Shown piece by piece: positions 26,424 to 31,340 of a DNA stretch of 55,339 nt. The stretch's first letter is position 1; each line of letters starts with the position of its first letter. The stretch is from positions 1-55,339 of the forward strand of contig NZ_JAJJND010000006.1 in assembly GCF_029759835.1 (NCBI RefSeq), in the 5' to 3' direction. This DNA is from Acetobacter sp. AN02. Its GTDB lineage: Bacteria; Pseudomonadota; Alphaproteobacteria; Acetobacterales; Acetobacteraceae. Position numbers and translations under genes: made by a program. The notes under the pieces were generated by a model. It had not been told where the DNA came from. It was given only the letters and a program-made list of their open reading frames with translations, and did no database searches.

Positions 26424-27005
26424 GTGACGATTCATCTTTCCTTTACAGATGTGGAGAAGCTGCCGACTCTGTGGCAGGTGCCGGTCATCATCGCAGCCAC
26501 CTATCTTCTGGAGGACGGGGCGACTGTCGCGACAGCCCTGGCGGTTGCGGACGGTCATGCGGACTGGATGATCAGCCTTGCGGCGCTTTGGTTCGGGATC
26601 ATTTCCGGCGATGCCGGGCTTTATGGTCTTGGCATGCTTGCGACGCGGTTTGTATTTTTCCGGCGCTGGCTGCCTGATGAGGAGGACACTCCGGGCTGGG
26701 AGGGATGGAAACTGTTCCGGGTGGTGTTTATCAGCCGTTTCATTCCCGGATCGCGGCTTCCGCTTTATACGACATGCGGATATTTCGGCGCGAATTTTGG
26801 TATTTTCATCACTGCCGTTATTATCGCCACCCTGATATGGACGACCGTTCTGTTCGAGGTCTCGCTGCGGGCCGGTCATTATCTTGAGTCCTGGCTTGGC
26901 ACTTGGCGCTGGGTCGGGGTGGCAGGTATGATTATCGCAACCATCCTGATCGGACATATTGTTGCCCGGCAGAGAAAGAAATCCGGCCGGGCGGGTAAGA
27001 CATGA
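26424..27005 (+). CDS. DedA-family (VTT-domain) membrane protein
   Basis: This is an integral membrane protein of about 193 residues from GTG 26424, preceded by GGAAGAGG with 8-base spacing; an upstream ATG at 26295 adds a hydrophilic tail with no ribosome site. DedA features seen are the FGIISGDAGLYGLGMLATRFVF segment, the conserved charged re-entrant motif FRVVFISRFIPGSRLPLYTTCGYFG, and two C-terminal helices. DedA proteins scramble or translocate lipids; members such as UptA recycle undecaprenyl phosphate, others handle phosphatidylethanolamine. The stop overlaps the next start by 4 bases (ATGA), tying it to an ATP-grasp enzyme. Which lipid it moves is unknown. Confidence 0.9.
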   Translation: MTIHLSFTDVEKLPTLWQVPVIIAATYLLEDGATVATALAVADGHADWMISLAALWFGIISGDAGLYGLGMLATRFVFFRRWLPDEEDTPGWEGWKLFRVVFISRFIPGSRLPLYTTCGYFGANFGIFITAVIIATLIWTTVLFEVSLRAGHYLESWLGTWRWVGVAGMIIATILIGHIVARQRKKSGRAGKT

Positions 27006-28093
27006 TACGGGATTCAGCTGTTACGGACGGTAATGCTGCTGACGGCACGTCCAGGACTGTCTCATTTTTCGAATTCTGGCCGGGATGGGCGTTCTATACG
27101 CCGATCGTGGTCTGGTGGATTCTTCTCGGATTCCGTTTCCGGGATATGAGTCTGCCGACGATTGCCAATCCCCATATTCCGACCGGCGGGCTTTGCGGGG
27201 AAAGCAAGAGCGACATTCTTGCTCAGGCCGGCCAGGTTGCGCGCCAGTGGATCGCGCCCTGGACTGTGATGCGTACCGGCCGGCAGGACGGAACTCGTGC
27301 GCGGGCTGCGATGGCAGAGGCCGGACTGTCCTTTCCTGTCGTGGTCAAGCCCGATATCGGCTGCAACGGCACCGGTGTGCGTCTGGTTCAGGCTGATGGC
27401 GGGCTGGATGAGGTGCTGGCTTCATTCCCCCGTGACGTGGATCTCGTGCTGCAGCGGCTGATTCCCTACGAACATGAGGCCGGTGTTTTCTATATCCGGC
27501 ATCCCCAGAAGCCGCGCGGAGAGATTTCGTCCCTGACGATCAAGCTGATCCCCTCCCTGACCGGGGATGGCCGCTCTTCCGTGCGGGAACTGCTGCATGC
27601 CGATCCCCGAACGGGGCTTCTGACCCGTCTGTATGAGCCGCGGCTCGGGGACCGGCTGGAGACCGTTCCGGCAAAGGGAGAGGTCGTTCCTCTGGTGTTC
27701 ACCGGAAATCACTGCAAGGGAGCAGTGTTCGTGAATGGTGAGGCCGATATTACGCCGGAGCTGGCGGCACGTATCGACAGCATCATGCAGGATTTTCCCG
27801 AGTTCTATTTTGGCAGAATCGATCTGAAATTCCGCTCGCCGGAGACGCTGCGTCGCGGGGAGGAGTTTGAGATTATCGAGATCAACGGAGTCGGTGCTGA
27901 GGCGACCCATATCTGGGATGCACGCACGACGCTGCGTGAGGCCTGGATCACGCAGTTCCGGCATTATTACGAGGCGTTTGTCATCGGGGCCGAGAACCGG
28001 CGGCGGGGCTGGAAGCCGACCGGTGTGTGGCATGGCGTGAAGCTGTGGCAGAACCAGAAGCGGCTGATGCGGTCCTATCCCCTGAACGACTGA
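27002..28093 (+). CDS. Membrane-anchored ATP-grasp ligase, D-Ala-D-Ala ligase-like
   Basis: This 363-residue protein begins with a short soluble segment and one hydrophobic stretch (WAFYTPIVVWWILLGFRF). A region rich in FEFWPGWAF and LPTIANPHIPTGGLCGESKS leads into an ATP-grasp domain. ATP-grasp marks are FPVVVKPDIGCNGTGVRLV, the DLVLQRLIPYEHEAGVFYIR strand, and the metal-binding end FEIIEINGVGAEATHIWD. Related proteins are annotated as D-Ala-D-Ala or carboxylate-amine ligase-like, but no substrate is established as far as I know. It overlaps the DedA gene, so the pair probably works on the same membrane lipid or carrier. uppP lies 0.65 kb downstream. Confidence 0.85.
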   Translation: MIRDSAVTDGNAADGTSRTVSFFEFWPGWAFYTPIVVWWILLGFRFRDMSLPTIANPHIPTGGLCGESKSDILAQAGQVARQWIAPWTVMRTGRQDGTRARAAMAEAGLSFPVVVKPDIGCNGTGVRLVQADGGLDEVLASFPRDVDLVLQRLIPYEHEAGVFYIRHPQKPRGEISSLTIKLIPSLTGDGRSSVRELLHADPRTGLLTRLYEPRLGDRLETVPAKGEVVPLVFTGNHCKGAVFVNGEADITPELAARIDSIMQDFPEFYFGRIDLKFRSPETLRRGEEFEIIEINGVGAEATHIWDARTTLREAWITQFRHYYEAFVIGAENRRRGWKPTGVWHGVKLWQNQKRLMRSYPLND

Positions 28094-28101
28094 ACCTTCG
28101 T

Positions 28102-28563
28102 TCAGTTTGTTCCGAGACCGCCTGATCCGAAGATGTAGTTGCCGATCTGCTGCTCGAGGCTGACCGGTTCCTGGGTGTTTGTCATCTCTGCCCCTGAGGA
28201 GACGGTTTTTTCAGAATGGCCGGGCTGAATCATCAGTGCGTTCTCGCCTGATAATGTGGCGCTTCCTATGGTGAGCAGGCTGTCTTCAGGAAGCTTCAGC
28301 CGGGAATCGATATCGAAGGCGACATAGGCAAAACCTGTTGCCGGATCAAGCCGGATGGTCGAGACGCGGCCCACCTTCACACCTGCAATATCCACGTCGG
28401 CCCCGCTGTTCAGGCCGTTGGCAGACAGAAAGCGGGCGGACAGGCGCGTGTGATCCGCGCCTGGCGTGATCTGCGTGCTCCGGGCATAGAGGCCGAAGGC
28501 GACGGCGCAGGCCAGCACGAACGAGCTGCATATGATTGCGCCGTAGTCCCTTTTCCGGATCAT
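28102..28563 (-). CDS. mlaD: MlaD-like outer-membrane lipid asymmetry protein
   Basis: This 153-residue protein has one N-terminal membrane helix (YGAIICSSFVLACAVAFGLY) followed by an MCE domain: LSARFLSANGLNSGADVDIAGVKVGRV, then FDIDSRLKLPEDSLLTIGSATLSGENALMI. A short C-terminal extension ends in GSGGLGTN. MlaD forms a hexamer under the MlaFE transporter and carries phospholipids across the periplasm. It is shorter than E. coli MlaD (about 183). No mlaE or mlaF lies next to it, so it is an orphan in this window. It converges with the ATP-grasp gene with 8 bases between stops. Confidence 0.9.
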   Translation of the reverse strand: MIRKRDYGAIICSSFVLACAVAFGLYARSTQITPGADHTRLSARFLSANGLNSGADVDIAGVKVGRVSTIRLDPATGFAYVAFDIDSRLKLPEDSLLTIGSATLSGENALMIQPGHSEKTVSSGAEMTNTQEPVSLEQQIGNYIFGSGGLGTN

Positions 28564-28744
28564 GCGGTTCAGTCGCCTTCCTTTGAAATATGGTTCAAGC
28601 CTAGCACATCAGAGGTTCTGAGGGGAACAGAGATGGTTTCGTGCAGATGCCGGGTTTCGCCCGTGCGCCTGACAGGCTAGTCTGGGCTTTTATTTTTACG
28701 CTTGCGTCGGATGCCCGACGTTTAATCGGGATGTGCATTTTTCC

Positions 28745-29602
28745 ATGACACTGATGCAGGTCATTCTTATCGCCATCTTGCAGGGCATGACCGAGCTGTT
28801 TCCTGTAAGCAGTCTTGGTCACGGCGTTGTTCTCCCTGCCCTTCTGCACTGGTCTTTCAGCACTAGGGACGAGATGTTCCTGCCGCTTCTGGTGATGCTG
28901 CATCTTGGCACCTCGATCGCGCTTCTGGCATTTTTCTGGAAGGACTGGCTGGCGATTTTTCGCGGGGTTCTCGGGATCGATACGGGGCAGCGGCGGGTTG
29001 AGAGCTTCCGTATTCTGTTTCTTCTGATCATTGCGACCATTCCTGCGGTGATCATCGGCGGGGTGTTCGAGCATCTTCTGAAGCAGCTTTTCGGCGCGCC
29101 TCAGGCGGCAGCGGCATTTCTTGTCGTCAACGGGCTGATGCTGATCGGTGTCGAGCGTCTGCGGGAACGGAACAGGCGGCGGTTTGCCGATACACACAGG
29201 CCGGTGGCCTCTCTGACGGCGCGGGATGCGGTTGTGATCGGTCTTTGCCAGTGTCTGGCGTTTTTTCCGGGAATTTCGCGTTCAGGCGCCACGATTGCGG
29301 GCGGGCTTCTGCGGGGCCTGCCGCATGACGTTGCGGCGCGTTTCTCGTTTCTGATGGCGGAGCCTGTCATCATCGCGGCCACGGTCCGCGAGGCTCTGAA
29401 GCTGCGGCATACGCCGCCTGAGCCGGGCGTAATGCATATGGCGATGATCGGGGCCGTTGTGGCCGGTATTACCGGTCTTGTCAGCACCTTCGTCCTGATG
29501 CGCTGGTTCAGGGAACATGACAGCTGGGCGCTTACACCGTTCGGATTTTATTGCATTCTGTTCGGCGGCGGTTCTCTGATGTTGCTCCACCTGGCGGGCT
29601 GA
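28745..29602 (+). CDS. uppP: Undecaprenyl-diphosphatase UppP/BacA
   Basis: UppP removes a phosphate from undecaprenyl diphosphate so the lipid carrier can be reused for wall and polysaccharide synthesis. From the ATG at 28745 it is 285 residues, with about eight membrane helices. The two signature regions are ILQGMTELFPVSSLGHG (Glu17, His26) and LAFFPGISRSGATIAGGLLRGL. A GTG at 28733 would add four residues; family N-termini favour 28745. It is divergent from mlaD with a 180-base gap. It sits close to the DedA/ATP-grasp pair, which fits a lipid-carrier theme. Confidence 0.95.
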   Translation: MTLMQVILIAILQGMTELFPVSSLGHGVVLPALLHWSFSTRDEMFLPLLVMLHLGTSIALLAFFWKDWLAIFRGVLGIDTGQRRVESFRILFLLIIATIPAVIIGGVFEHLLKQLFGAPQAAAAFLVVNGLMLIGVERLRERNRRRFADTHRPVASLTARDAVVIGLCQCLAFFPGISRSGATIAGGLLRGLPHDVAARFSFLMAEPVIIAATVREALKLRHTPPEPGVMHMAMIGAVVAGITGLVSTFVLMRWFREHDSWALTPFGFYCILFGGGSLMLLHLAG

Positions 29603-29653: not shown

Positions 29654-31195
29654 ATGAGCGTTCCGGTATCGAAATATAACTCCTCCCTGCGTAAATCGAT
29701 CGAACAGATCGAGCGGGAAAACGAAGGCTCCGGCCTCAGGAGGACGCTCGGGCCTGTCCAGCTCACGATGCTTGGAGTGGGATCGACCGTAGGTGCGGGC
29801 ATCTATGTCATGACCGGTGCGGCAGCGGCGAATTATGCCGGGCCGTCGATTCTTCTGTCTTTTCTCATCGCGGGTCTGGCCTGTCTGTTTACGGCTCTGT
29901 CCTATGGTGAGCTGTCTTCCTCCATGCCGGTTTCGGGTTCCGCCTACAGCTATGCCTATGTTTCCCTGGGGGAGCGCTGGGCCTGGTGGACGGGCTGGCT
30001 GCTGCTTTTGGAATACGGAATATCCTGCGCGGGCGTGGCCTCGGGGTTTTCCGGATATGCTGTCAGTCTTCTGAAGGATTTCGGGATCGGGATTCCGGCG
30101 GCTCTGTCCCATACGACGATTCATTCCACCTTCACCTCCTCTGGCATGGAGGCTGATTTCGGCTGGCGGCTGGATGTGGTCGGGGCGTTTTCGATTCTGT
30201 TCGTGACGTTTTTTCTCGTGCGGGGTGTTCAGGAATCAGCGCGGGTCAATACGGCTGTTGTGATCCTCAAGGTCGGTGTTCTGCTGGTTTTTGTCCTGCT
30301 GGGTCTGAAGGCCATTCATCCGGCCTATTTCCATCCGTTCATTCCGCCTTCAGAGGGGGCTTTCCGTTACGGTCTGAGCGGAATTTTCCGTGCGGCTTCT
30401 CTGGTGTTCTTTGCCTATGTGGGGTTTGAGGCGGTTTCGACGGCGTCTTCCGAGGCGCGCAACCCGCGGCGCGACGTGCCTCTGGGAATTATCCTTTCCC
30501 TGCTGGTCTGTACGGCCATCTATATGTGTGTGGCTGCCGTTCTTATCGGCGTGGTGCCGTGGCGGAATCTGGATGTTGCCGATCCTCTGGCTCTTGCCGT
30601 GGACGCGATCGGGCAGCCCTGGCTGACGCTGATCGTCAAGCTTGGTGCCGTGATCGGGCTGTGTTCGGTTCTGTTCGGACTGCTTTATGCCCAGAGCCGG
30701 ATTTTCTTCACGATGGGCCGTGATGGTCTGATCCCGTCGGTCTTCTGCACCCTGCATCCCCGGCACCAGACGCCCTGGCTTGGCGCGATTCTGCTTGGCG
30801 GTCTGGTTGCGACGGCGACCGCGCTTCTCCCGATTGATATCATCGGGGATCTTGTCAGCATCGGTACGGCTTCTGCCTTTGCCGTCGTGTGTTTTACGGT
30901 GATCTGGGACCGCAATACGCGTCCTGATGCGCCGCGCCGGTTTCTGGTGCCACTGGGCGGGCTGCGTATCGGCCGGGTCTGGATCGGAATCGTTCCGGTT
31001 CTGGGGATCCTGTTCTGTGTGATCATGGCCGCGCCACTTGTGATTGACGTGATCCGGGATTTCCTGACCGGCAATTACACGCCGATGGTTCTGCTTGTGG
31101 TTTATTTCGTTACCGGAGCACTGCTTTACCGGCAGTATGGCCGTCATCATTCCGCCCTCGCCTCCTCCTTCAGAAAGGATATCCGGCAGGGCTGA
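29654..31195 (+). CDS. APC-superfamily amino acid permease (CAT type)
   Basis: This 513-residue permease has about 12 membrane helices. The N-terminal LGPVQLTMLGVGSTVGAGIYVMTG loop is the substrate-binding GxGxxGAGI region of APC transporters. Other typical segments are ALSYGELSSSMPVSGSAYSYAY, ERWAWWTGWLLLLEYG and FFAYVGFEAVSTASSEARNPRRD. The layout resembles bacterial relatives of cationic amino acid transporters such as YfnA. The substrate is not determined by sequence alone. The start is ATG at 29654. It lies 51 bases after uppP and just before a tRNA gene. Confidence 0.92.
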   Translation: MSVPVSKYNSSLRKSIEQIERENEGSGLRRTLGPVQLTMLGVGSTVGAGIYVMTGAAAANYAGPSILLSFLIAGLACLFTALSYGELSSSMPVSGSAYSYAYVSLGERWAWWTGWLLLLEYGISCAGVASGFSGYAVSLLKDFGIGIPAALSHTTIHSTFTSSGMEADFGWRLDVVGAFSILFVTFFLVRGVQESARVNTAVVILKVGVLLVFVLLGLKAIHPAYFHPFIPPSEGAFRYGLSGIFRAASLVFFAYVGFEAVSTASSEARNPRRDVPLGIILSLLVCTAIYMCVAAVLIGVVPWRNLDVADPLALAVDAIGQPWLTLIVKLGAVIGLCSVLFGLLYAQSRIFFTMGRDGLIPSVFCTLHPRHQTPWLGAILLGGLVATATALLPIDIIGDLVSIGTASAFAVVCFTVIWDRNTRPDAPRRFLVPLGGLRIGRVWIGIVPVLGILFCVIMAAPLVIDVIRDFLTGNYTPMVLLVVYFVTGALLYRQYGRHHSALASSFRKDIRQG

Positions 31196-31265: not shown

Positions 31266-31340
31266 GGCGGCGTAGCTCAGCGGTAGAGCAGGGGAATCAT
31301 AATCCCTTGGTCGGCGGTTCAAATCCGTCCGCCGCTACCA
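31266..31340 (+). tRNA. tRNA-Met (CAT), elongator
   Basis: The 75-base sequence folds as a tRNA with encoded CCA. The acceptor stem GGCGGCG pairs with CGCCGCT (one G-T end pair), the D arm is GCTC/GAGC, and the anticodon stem GGGGA/TCCCT closes the loop ATCATAA with anticodon CAT. The T arm GGCGG/CCGTC closes TTCAAAT. The acceptor first pair and anticodon stem are not those of initiator tRNA (no C1-A72 mismatch, no GGG/CCC). The loop ATCATAA is that of elongator Met rather than the lysidine-modified tRNA-Ile. Leader and trailer are complementary over 8 bases. Confidence 0.95.

Follow-up and report, generated by a model that had tools for sequence, protein, structure and literature searches.

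A DedA membrane protein and an overlapping ATP-grasp ligase as a candidate pair for aminolipid head-group extension

A 55,339-nucleotide stretch from Acetobacter sp. AN02 (contig NZ_JAJJND010000006.1; the whole stretch is called the window here) carries, at positions 26424 to 28093, a gene for a DedA-family membrane protein that overlaps a gene for a protein with a predicted ATP-grasp fold. The two genes are paired in many bacteria and fused in some, the putative catalytic residues of the second protein are invariant, and in two phyla its relatives are encoded near acyltransferases of the OlsB and OlsF types. On balance, the evidence tilts towards an aminolipid ligase whose product is transported by the DedA protein.

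Head-group-extended aminolipids (ornithine–taurine, glycine–serine and others) are known chemically, and the passages of the literature at hand name no extending enzyme; among the matches listed in the open-licence literature on aminolipids, no gene for head-group extension was found. The pair would be a concrete candidate for both head-group extension and lipid transport, its genes being easy to delete in laboratory bacteria that are not pathogens, and its presence could serve to predict the making of such lipids in other bacteria. If the proposal is true, one branch of the DedA family would have a substrate class. Each part falls within a known superfamily, and the combination and its proposed substrate appear to be undescribed in the literature searched: in open-licence papers we found none that links DedA with ornithine lipid or OlsF with DedA, and none among the matches listed that links these genes.

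The two proteins

The features of the pair are as follows (window positions).
26424–27005, + strand: DedA/VTT-family membrane protein, 193 amino acids, GTG start (Pfam VTT_dom, 5.4e-9, 37 bits)
27002–28093, + strand: ATP-grasp carboxylate–amine ligase-like protein, 363 amino acids, ATG start (AlphaFold2, Foldseek, VIA-align)
27002–27005, + strand: ATGA start/stop overlap of the DedA and ATP-grasp genes, from the sequence
27083–27139, + strand: region coding for a Trp-rich hydrophobic helix, residues 28–46 (DSSP on the model; probable membrane contact)
27347–27349, + strand: Lys116, putative ATP-binding lysine (VVKPDIG), invariant in 21 and 39 aligned sequences
27815–27823, + strand: Arg272-Ile-Asp274 (GRxD), putative catalytic Arg and Mg-binding Asp; R272 and D274 invariant
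27878–27886, + strand: Glu293-Ile-Asn295, putative Mg-binding Glu and Asn; E293 and N295 invariant

A sequence-only reading of the window had named a DedA protein, an ATP-grasp protein with one membrane helix and an ATGA overlap between their genes. The DedA identity is borne out by a VTT domain above the Pfam cut-off (37 bits against 33.9), and an alignment of relatives shows conserved ED, GD and R..PG motifs. Both open reading frames lie where that reading had placed them, and the ATP-grasp ATG sits inside the DedA stop codon. Counting the window pair together with the 75 adjacent ones from the 79 named loci described below, a 4-base overlap (ATGA or GTGA) is seen in 47 of 76, above chance expectation.

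The ATP-grasp protein stays below every Pfam and NCBIfam cut-off; its ATP-grasp matches are all sub-threshold, and its best sequence match in the PDB is marginal (E 0.083). Its AlphaFold2 model (mean predicted local distance difference test 89.7, predicted template modelling score 0.87) has cyanophycin synthetase 1 as its top Foldseek match (E 1.6e-11). VIA-align superposes 276 residues on cyanophycin synthetase (Z 17.2, root-mean-square deviation 4.5 Å) and ranks glutathione synthetase, LysX/ArgX and D-Ala-D-Ala ligase below it. Most of the closest folds are ligases of amino-acid and peptide carboxylates. Judged by this model, the second protein is an ATP-grasp protein, as had been read from its letters, despite the sub-threshold matches. 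We rejected membership in two of the known families, the cyanophycin synthetases (TIGR02068, 12.2 bits against a cut-off of 850) and the D-alanine–D-alanine ligases, the annotation that the protein carries in Salinivibrio (PF07478, 11.3 bits against 24; TIGR01205, 10.1 against 245.65).

K116, R272, D274, E293 and N295 are invariant in both alignments. From the ATP-grasp family and D-Ala-D-Ala ligase we take them to be ATP, phosphate and magnesium residues; with this presumed catalytic set invariant, we expect an active enzyme. The conserved, Trp-rich helix 28–46 is only moderately hydrophobic (maximal 19-residue Kyte–Doolittle mean, 1.24). Membrane contact is likely; where the sequence-only reading had one membrane helix, the hydropathy maximum suggests a helix that is interfacial or marginal, not a clear transmembrane one.

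Pairing and fusion

In Proteobacteria, 75 of 79 named loci, found by a scan that needs exact 8-residue matches, have DedA directly upstream of the ligase and on its strand. DedA is adjacent in all 25 main loci of our sample of relatives, the window's own included; left out of this count are a weak match (genome G039, E 6.8e-4), a second copy without DedA in G015 and a fragment in G010. Across Pseudomonadota, 18 sampled loci have DedA adjacent in 13 cases and fused in 2, and in Azospirillum sp. B510 DedA and ATP-grasp are annotated as one protein. Paracoccus ferrooxidans has the ligase gene followed by an alpha/beta hydrolase gene and a DedA gene on the opposite strand.

Fusion is frequent in Bacteroidota, where 20 of 46 carriers encode a single protein of about 810–900 residues with, from N to C terminus, an alpha/beta-hydrolase-like domain, a VTT domain and an ATP-grasp domain. 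Pfam identified the VTT domain in each of 8 fusions and a hydrolase model in 5; the remaining hydrolase-like domains were detected with a profile made from six N-terminal domains. Serine occupies the nucleophile position in 4 of 17 aligned fusions (among loci L157–L185) and another residue does in 13. For most fusions the sequence suggests a binding rather than a catalytic role for this domain.

In the other 26 Bacteroidota carriers the ligase stands alone, and the locus (up to 7 kb on each side) contains no DedA. Co-location across genomes, by which the sequence-only reading had proposed to judge the pair, is thus the rule in Proteobacteria (75 of 79 named loci, 15 of 18 sampled ones) and holds for about half of the Bacteroidota, with 20 of 46 fused and 26 of 46 without DedA.

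Some copies without DedA (L154, L209 and L212–L216 in Acetobacteraceae genomes, L032 and L149) adjoin a small methyltransferase gene, and a haem-oxygenase-like iron enzyme (PF14518) is encoded in several loci. The DedA-less copies of Variovorax and G423 have an OlsB-type gene next to them. These copies possibly make a different product. In L023/L028 (G010), L109 (Enterovibrio) and L031 (Azospirillum thermophilum) a stop or frameshift interrupts the ligase frame, through either sequencing error or decay.

Linkage to aminolipid acyltransferases

Clustering of the genes around the ligase identified families common to Gammaproteobacteria and Bacteroidota: DinB-like, TANGO2/NRDE, YHS and DoxX-like proteins, and acyltransferases with the PF13444 domain. 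In Gammaproteobacteria the linked acyltransferase has about 590 residues and combines PF13444 with an acyltransferase domain. OlsF, the bifunctional ornithine lipid synthase, is the best NCBIfam model for the two such cluster proteins that we scanned (6.6e-122 and 2.7e-129), over nearly their full length. Within Pseudomonadota, an OlsF or OlsB gene lies within about 6 kb of the ligase in 12 of 18 carriers, G247 included; of the six others, one is the window's genome, two belong to its family and a further three to its class. The OlsB-type gene beside the Variovorax ligase has OlsB as its best NCBIfam model (2.4e-51). PF13444 is the domain that aminolipid N-acyltransferases have in common, according to a passage of a review (PMC11631085).

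All 20 genomes with a Bacteroidota fusion have a PF13444 N-acyltransferase on the same contig, 3.1–4.2 kb start to start from the ligase domain, a proximity with a rough chance of 0.4% for one genome if 1.5 copies per 4 Mb are assumed. Upstream of the fusions stands an OlsB-like gene, joined in 7 of 8 larger loci by an OlsA-like gene. In the one fusion locus that was scanned, PF13444 and PF01553 were found, and the best NCBIfam model was OlsB (1.4e-38), with GlsB at only 8e-5.

The association takes several forms: DedA–ligase–DinB–NRDE–YHS–OlsF, ligase–OlsF without DedA, OlsF–(DedA+ligase), OlsB beside the ligase and, in the Bacteroidota fusions, OlsB–OlsA–(hydrolase+DedA+ligase). A tree of 64 chosen rows gives a separate, well-supported branch to each of three sets, namely the ligase–OlsF group, the OlsB-adjacent pair and the fusions of Bacteroidota; a single ancient ligase–acyltransferase association, rearranged later, would also be compatible with these data. 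Because the association has been kept through so many rearrangements, it points to a functional tie. Genome-wide, PF13444 is present in 18 of 18 Pseudomonadota carriers and 256 of 379 non-carriers (Fisher p 0.001), and in 38 of 46 Bacteroidota carriers and 71 of 201 non-carriers (Fisher p 4e-9), kinship being ignored in both comparisons.

The other travelling genes occur in loci that include L137–L140, L142, L146, L188 and L192. DinB-like, TANGO2/NRDE, YHS and DoxX-like proteins contribute 26, 18, 20 and 12 cluster members among 38 loci, YHS sometimes twice per locus. For the Vibrio ligase clusters L034 and L137, a candidate for comparison of the DinB, NRDE and YHS genes is VCA0649–VCA0646 of V. 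cholerae, a putative four-gene operon that ends, in the passage available, with the gene of a low-salt-induced OlsF-type synthase (PMC12186959).

Proposed function

The acylation step is established for the OlsB and OlsF families. We hypothesize that OlsB and OlsA, or OlsF, would make an N-acyl amino-acid lipid of the ornithine-lipid type with a free alpha-carboxylate. The membrane-associated ATP-grasp enzyme would use ATP to activate that carboxylate as an acyl phosphate and couple it with the amine of another small molecule; an amide and a two-residue head group would result. DedA, overlapping or fused with the ligase, would take the product (or the substrate) across the inner membrane. We infer the ligase step from the fold, the residues and the gene linkage, as we do the lipid carboxylate as acceptor and the amine; transport by DedA, and its direction, are suggested by the DedA family. 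A ligase acting on a lipid, with DedA as the mover, had already been put forward in the sequence-only reading, and it gains support from the repeated fusions and from the OlsF and OlsB linkage, the lipid itself being deduced from genes.

Which aminolipid would be extended is suggested by the company that the ligase keeps. The 20 Bacteroidota fusions occur only with short OlsB-type genes; the genomes of the 26 stand-alone ligases have OlsF-size genes in 16 cases, none in 8 and weak matches in 2. Carriers follow ornithine-type enzymes. The nearest named relatives of the window are acetic acid bacteria, and an acetic acid bacterium, Gluconobacter cerinus, makes cerilipin, an ornithine–taurine lipid, as stated in a passage of PMC4484230. 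A 2025 paper lists taurine transfer among the modifications of ornithine lipids and, in the part available, names no enzyme for it (PMC12493201). From this literature, our guess for the product in acetic acid bacteria is cerilipin. A bolder proposal is that in these bacteria the pair supplies the missing synthase and mover of cerilipin and that, across Pseudomonadota and Bacteroidota, its relatives act as a general system by which ornithine-type aminolipids have their head group extended and are flipped, the DedA cargo being an aminolipid; we regard this as rather unlikely.

Several observations weigh against an aminolipid ligase coupled to DedA. Every acyltransferase scanned with NCBIfam falls below the equivalog cut-offs. 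The OlsF-like cluster proteins score 407.9 and 432.3 bits against 620 for orn_lipid_OlsF, which makes them relatives rather than equivalogs, and they also match GlsB (1.9e-30 and 6.8e-40), so the amino acid is uncertain. Near the 26 stand-alone Bacteroidota ligases, which lack DedA, no OlsB or OlsF was found up to 7 kb on each side, and 8 of these carriers have no PF13444 match in the genome. In the window's own family, OlsB and OlsF were not found in the ligase loci, and 19 further loci, chosen mostly as second or divergent copies, have DedA in 5 and none in 14. The window's genome has a single PF13444 gene above the cut-off of that model, on another contig; its best model is OlsB (5.7e-80), with 268.8 and 262.2 bits against cut-offs of 350 and 320. 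No Gluconobacter is among the 79 named loci, with the exact-match requirement of that scan. PF13444 is common in genomes without the ligase (the 256 of 379 and 71 of 201 given above), and two small genomes of the window's genus keep PF13444 and have no ligase.

Because of these last two observations, the ligase family is an add-on trait at most. It is carried by 46 of 247 Bacteroidota genomes and by 18 of 397 Pseudomonadota genomes, the latter being 23 matches less five (E 2e-11 to 8e-11, about 160–210 residues within open reading frames of 455–1162 amino acids) that were counted as non-carriers. Carriers make up 83 of 200 genomes and 43 of 91 genera in the window's family, and 23 of 25 genomes in the genus sample, in which the two misses are genomes of 1.5–1.7 Mb.

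Alternative substrates

OlsB and OlsF neighbours would also fit an enzyme that takes a free (3-hydroxy) fatty acid, activates it and couples it with an amino acid, yielding an N-acyl amino acid that enters or bypasses O-acylation by OlsA or OlsF. An ATP-grasp enzyme that activates a fatty acid is described for acyl-histidine formation in Legionella in a passage of the review cited above (PMC11631085), and such a role counts against the aminolipid ligase. In the clusters studied here, however, this activity would be redundant with the OlsB/OlsF-type N-acyltransferase already present, and the preference of the nearest folds for amino-acid and peptide carboxylates also makes it improbable.

Glycine–serine lipids (flavolipins) or their relatives, made from GlsB products, would suit the chemistry of an ATP-grasp ligase. 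Their pathway is called unknown in a passage of a 2023 review (PMC10191378), and Bacteroidota also make glycine–serine–ornithine lipids, according to part of another paper (PMC8433624). GlsB is above its cut-off in 9 of 247 Bacteroidota genomes, however, and because only one of these 9 has the ligase, glycine–serine lipids of GlsB species are unlikely as its usual product; we disfavoured them as its general role. With the scanned fusion-linked N-acyltransferase matching OlsB far better than GlsB, we hold this substrate to be highly unlikely.

A soluble product is a further alternative. The ligase would make a soluble dipeptide or modify a small metabolite, and DedA would be linked to it for an unrelated membrane need such as the recycling of undecaprenyl phosphate, which some DedA proteins move. 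The closest solved folds (cyanophycin synthetase, glutathione synthetase, LysX and D-Ala-D-Ala ligase) use soluble or polymeric substrates, and 26 of 46 Bacteroidota ligases have neither DedA nor OlsB/OlsF nearby. Set against these points are the DedA fusions in separate lineages, the repeated OlsB/OlsF neighbourhood and the conserved Trp-rich hydrophobic helix, and we give a soluble product a low probability.

The uppP neighbour and the transcription unit

Three features lie at or beyond the end of the ligase gene.
28082–28105, + strand: terminator-like hairpin at the end of the ATP-grasp gene (8-pair stem, T-rich tail; weak evidence alone)
28102–28563, − strand: convergent MlaD-domain gene, outside the unit (Pfam MlaD, 4e-16)
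28733–29602, + strand: uppP, undecaprenyl-diphosphate phosphatase, probably outside the unit (NCBIfam NF001397, 2.8e-122)

The sequence-only reading took uppP as part of a lipid-carrier theme, and in one version of its proposal the ligase would decorate a carrier lipid or a phospholipid head group in connection with UppP. The gene lies about 640 bases downstream of the ligase in the window and, among acetic acid bacteria and their relatives, follows it at varying distance in 36 of 55 loci (tblastn, loci with at least 2.5 kb downstream). It is absent from the other 19 and from all 66 loci of other lineages, and in the window the convergent mlaD gene stands between. We hold this synteny to be lineage-local and rejected uppP as a functional partner; the carrier-lipid theme finds little support in these counts, and decoration of a carrier lipid or phospholipid is very improbable.

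Because the convergent mlaD-like gene and the hairpin separate them, uppP is probably not in the same transcription unit as the pair. With these two downstream and a lytic transglycosylase gene in the opposite orientation upstream, the unit most likely consists of the two genes alone. The terminator scan found 5 such hairpins, against a mean of 2.8 in shuffles. Farther downstream, a tRNA-Met gene lies at 31266–31340, after an open reading frame at 29654–31195.

Comparison with known systems

The proposed ligase shares its predicted fold with the ATP-grasp domain of cyanophycin synthetase, LysX and D-Ala-D-Ala ligase, together with a Lys, Arg-Asp, Glu-Asn pattern that we take from D-Ala-D-Ala ligase. 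It differs from them in sequence (about 10–20% identity in structural alignments, no family cut-off passed) and, unlike them, has a Trp-rich hydrophobic N-terminal helix and is coupled to DedA. The window DedA and the undecaprenyl phosphate translocases of its family have the VTT domain in common. The window protein belongs to a subfamily with a conserved ED motif that is coupled to a ligase and has aminolipid genes as neighbours in several other lineages.

The ATP-grasp enzyme of Legionella would be similar in having a lipidic amide as its product; it activates a fatty acid, as the passage in PMC11631085 describes, whereas the window ligase is proposed to act on an aminolipid carboxylate. Cerilipin of Gluconobacter cerinus resembles the proposed type of product and also comes from an acetic acid bacterium, and the passages that describe it name no gene or enzyme (PMC4484230, PMC12493201).

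Ornithine-lipid synthesis by OlsBA or OlsF is related to the pair through gene linkage in other lineages and through the OlsB gene in the window's genome. OlsBA and OlsF N- and O-acylate an amino acid, whereas the ligase would act later, on the carboxyl group that remains free.
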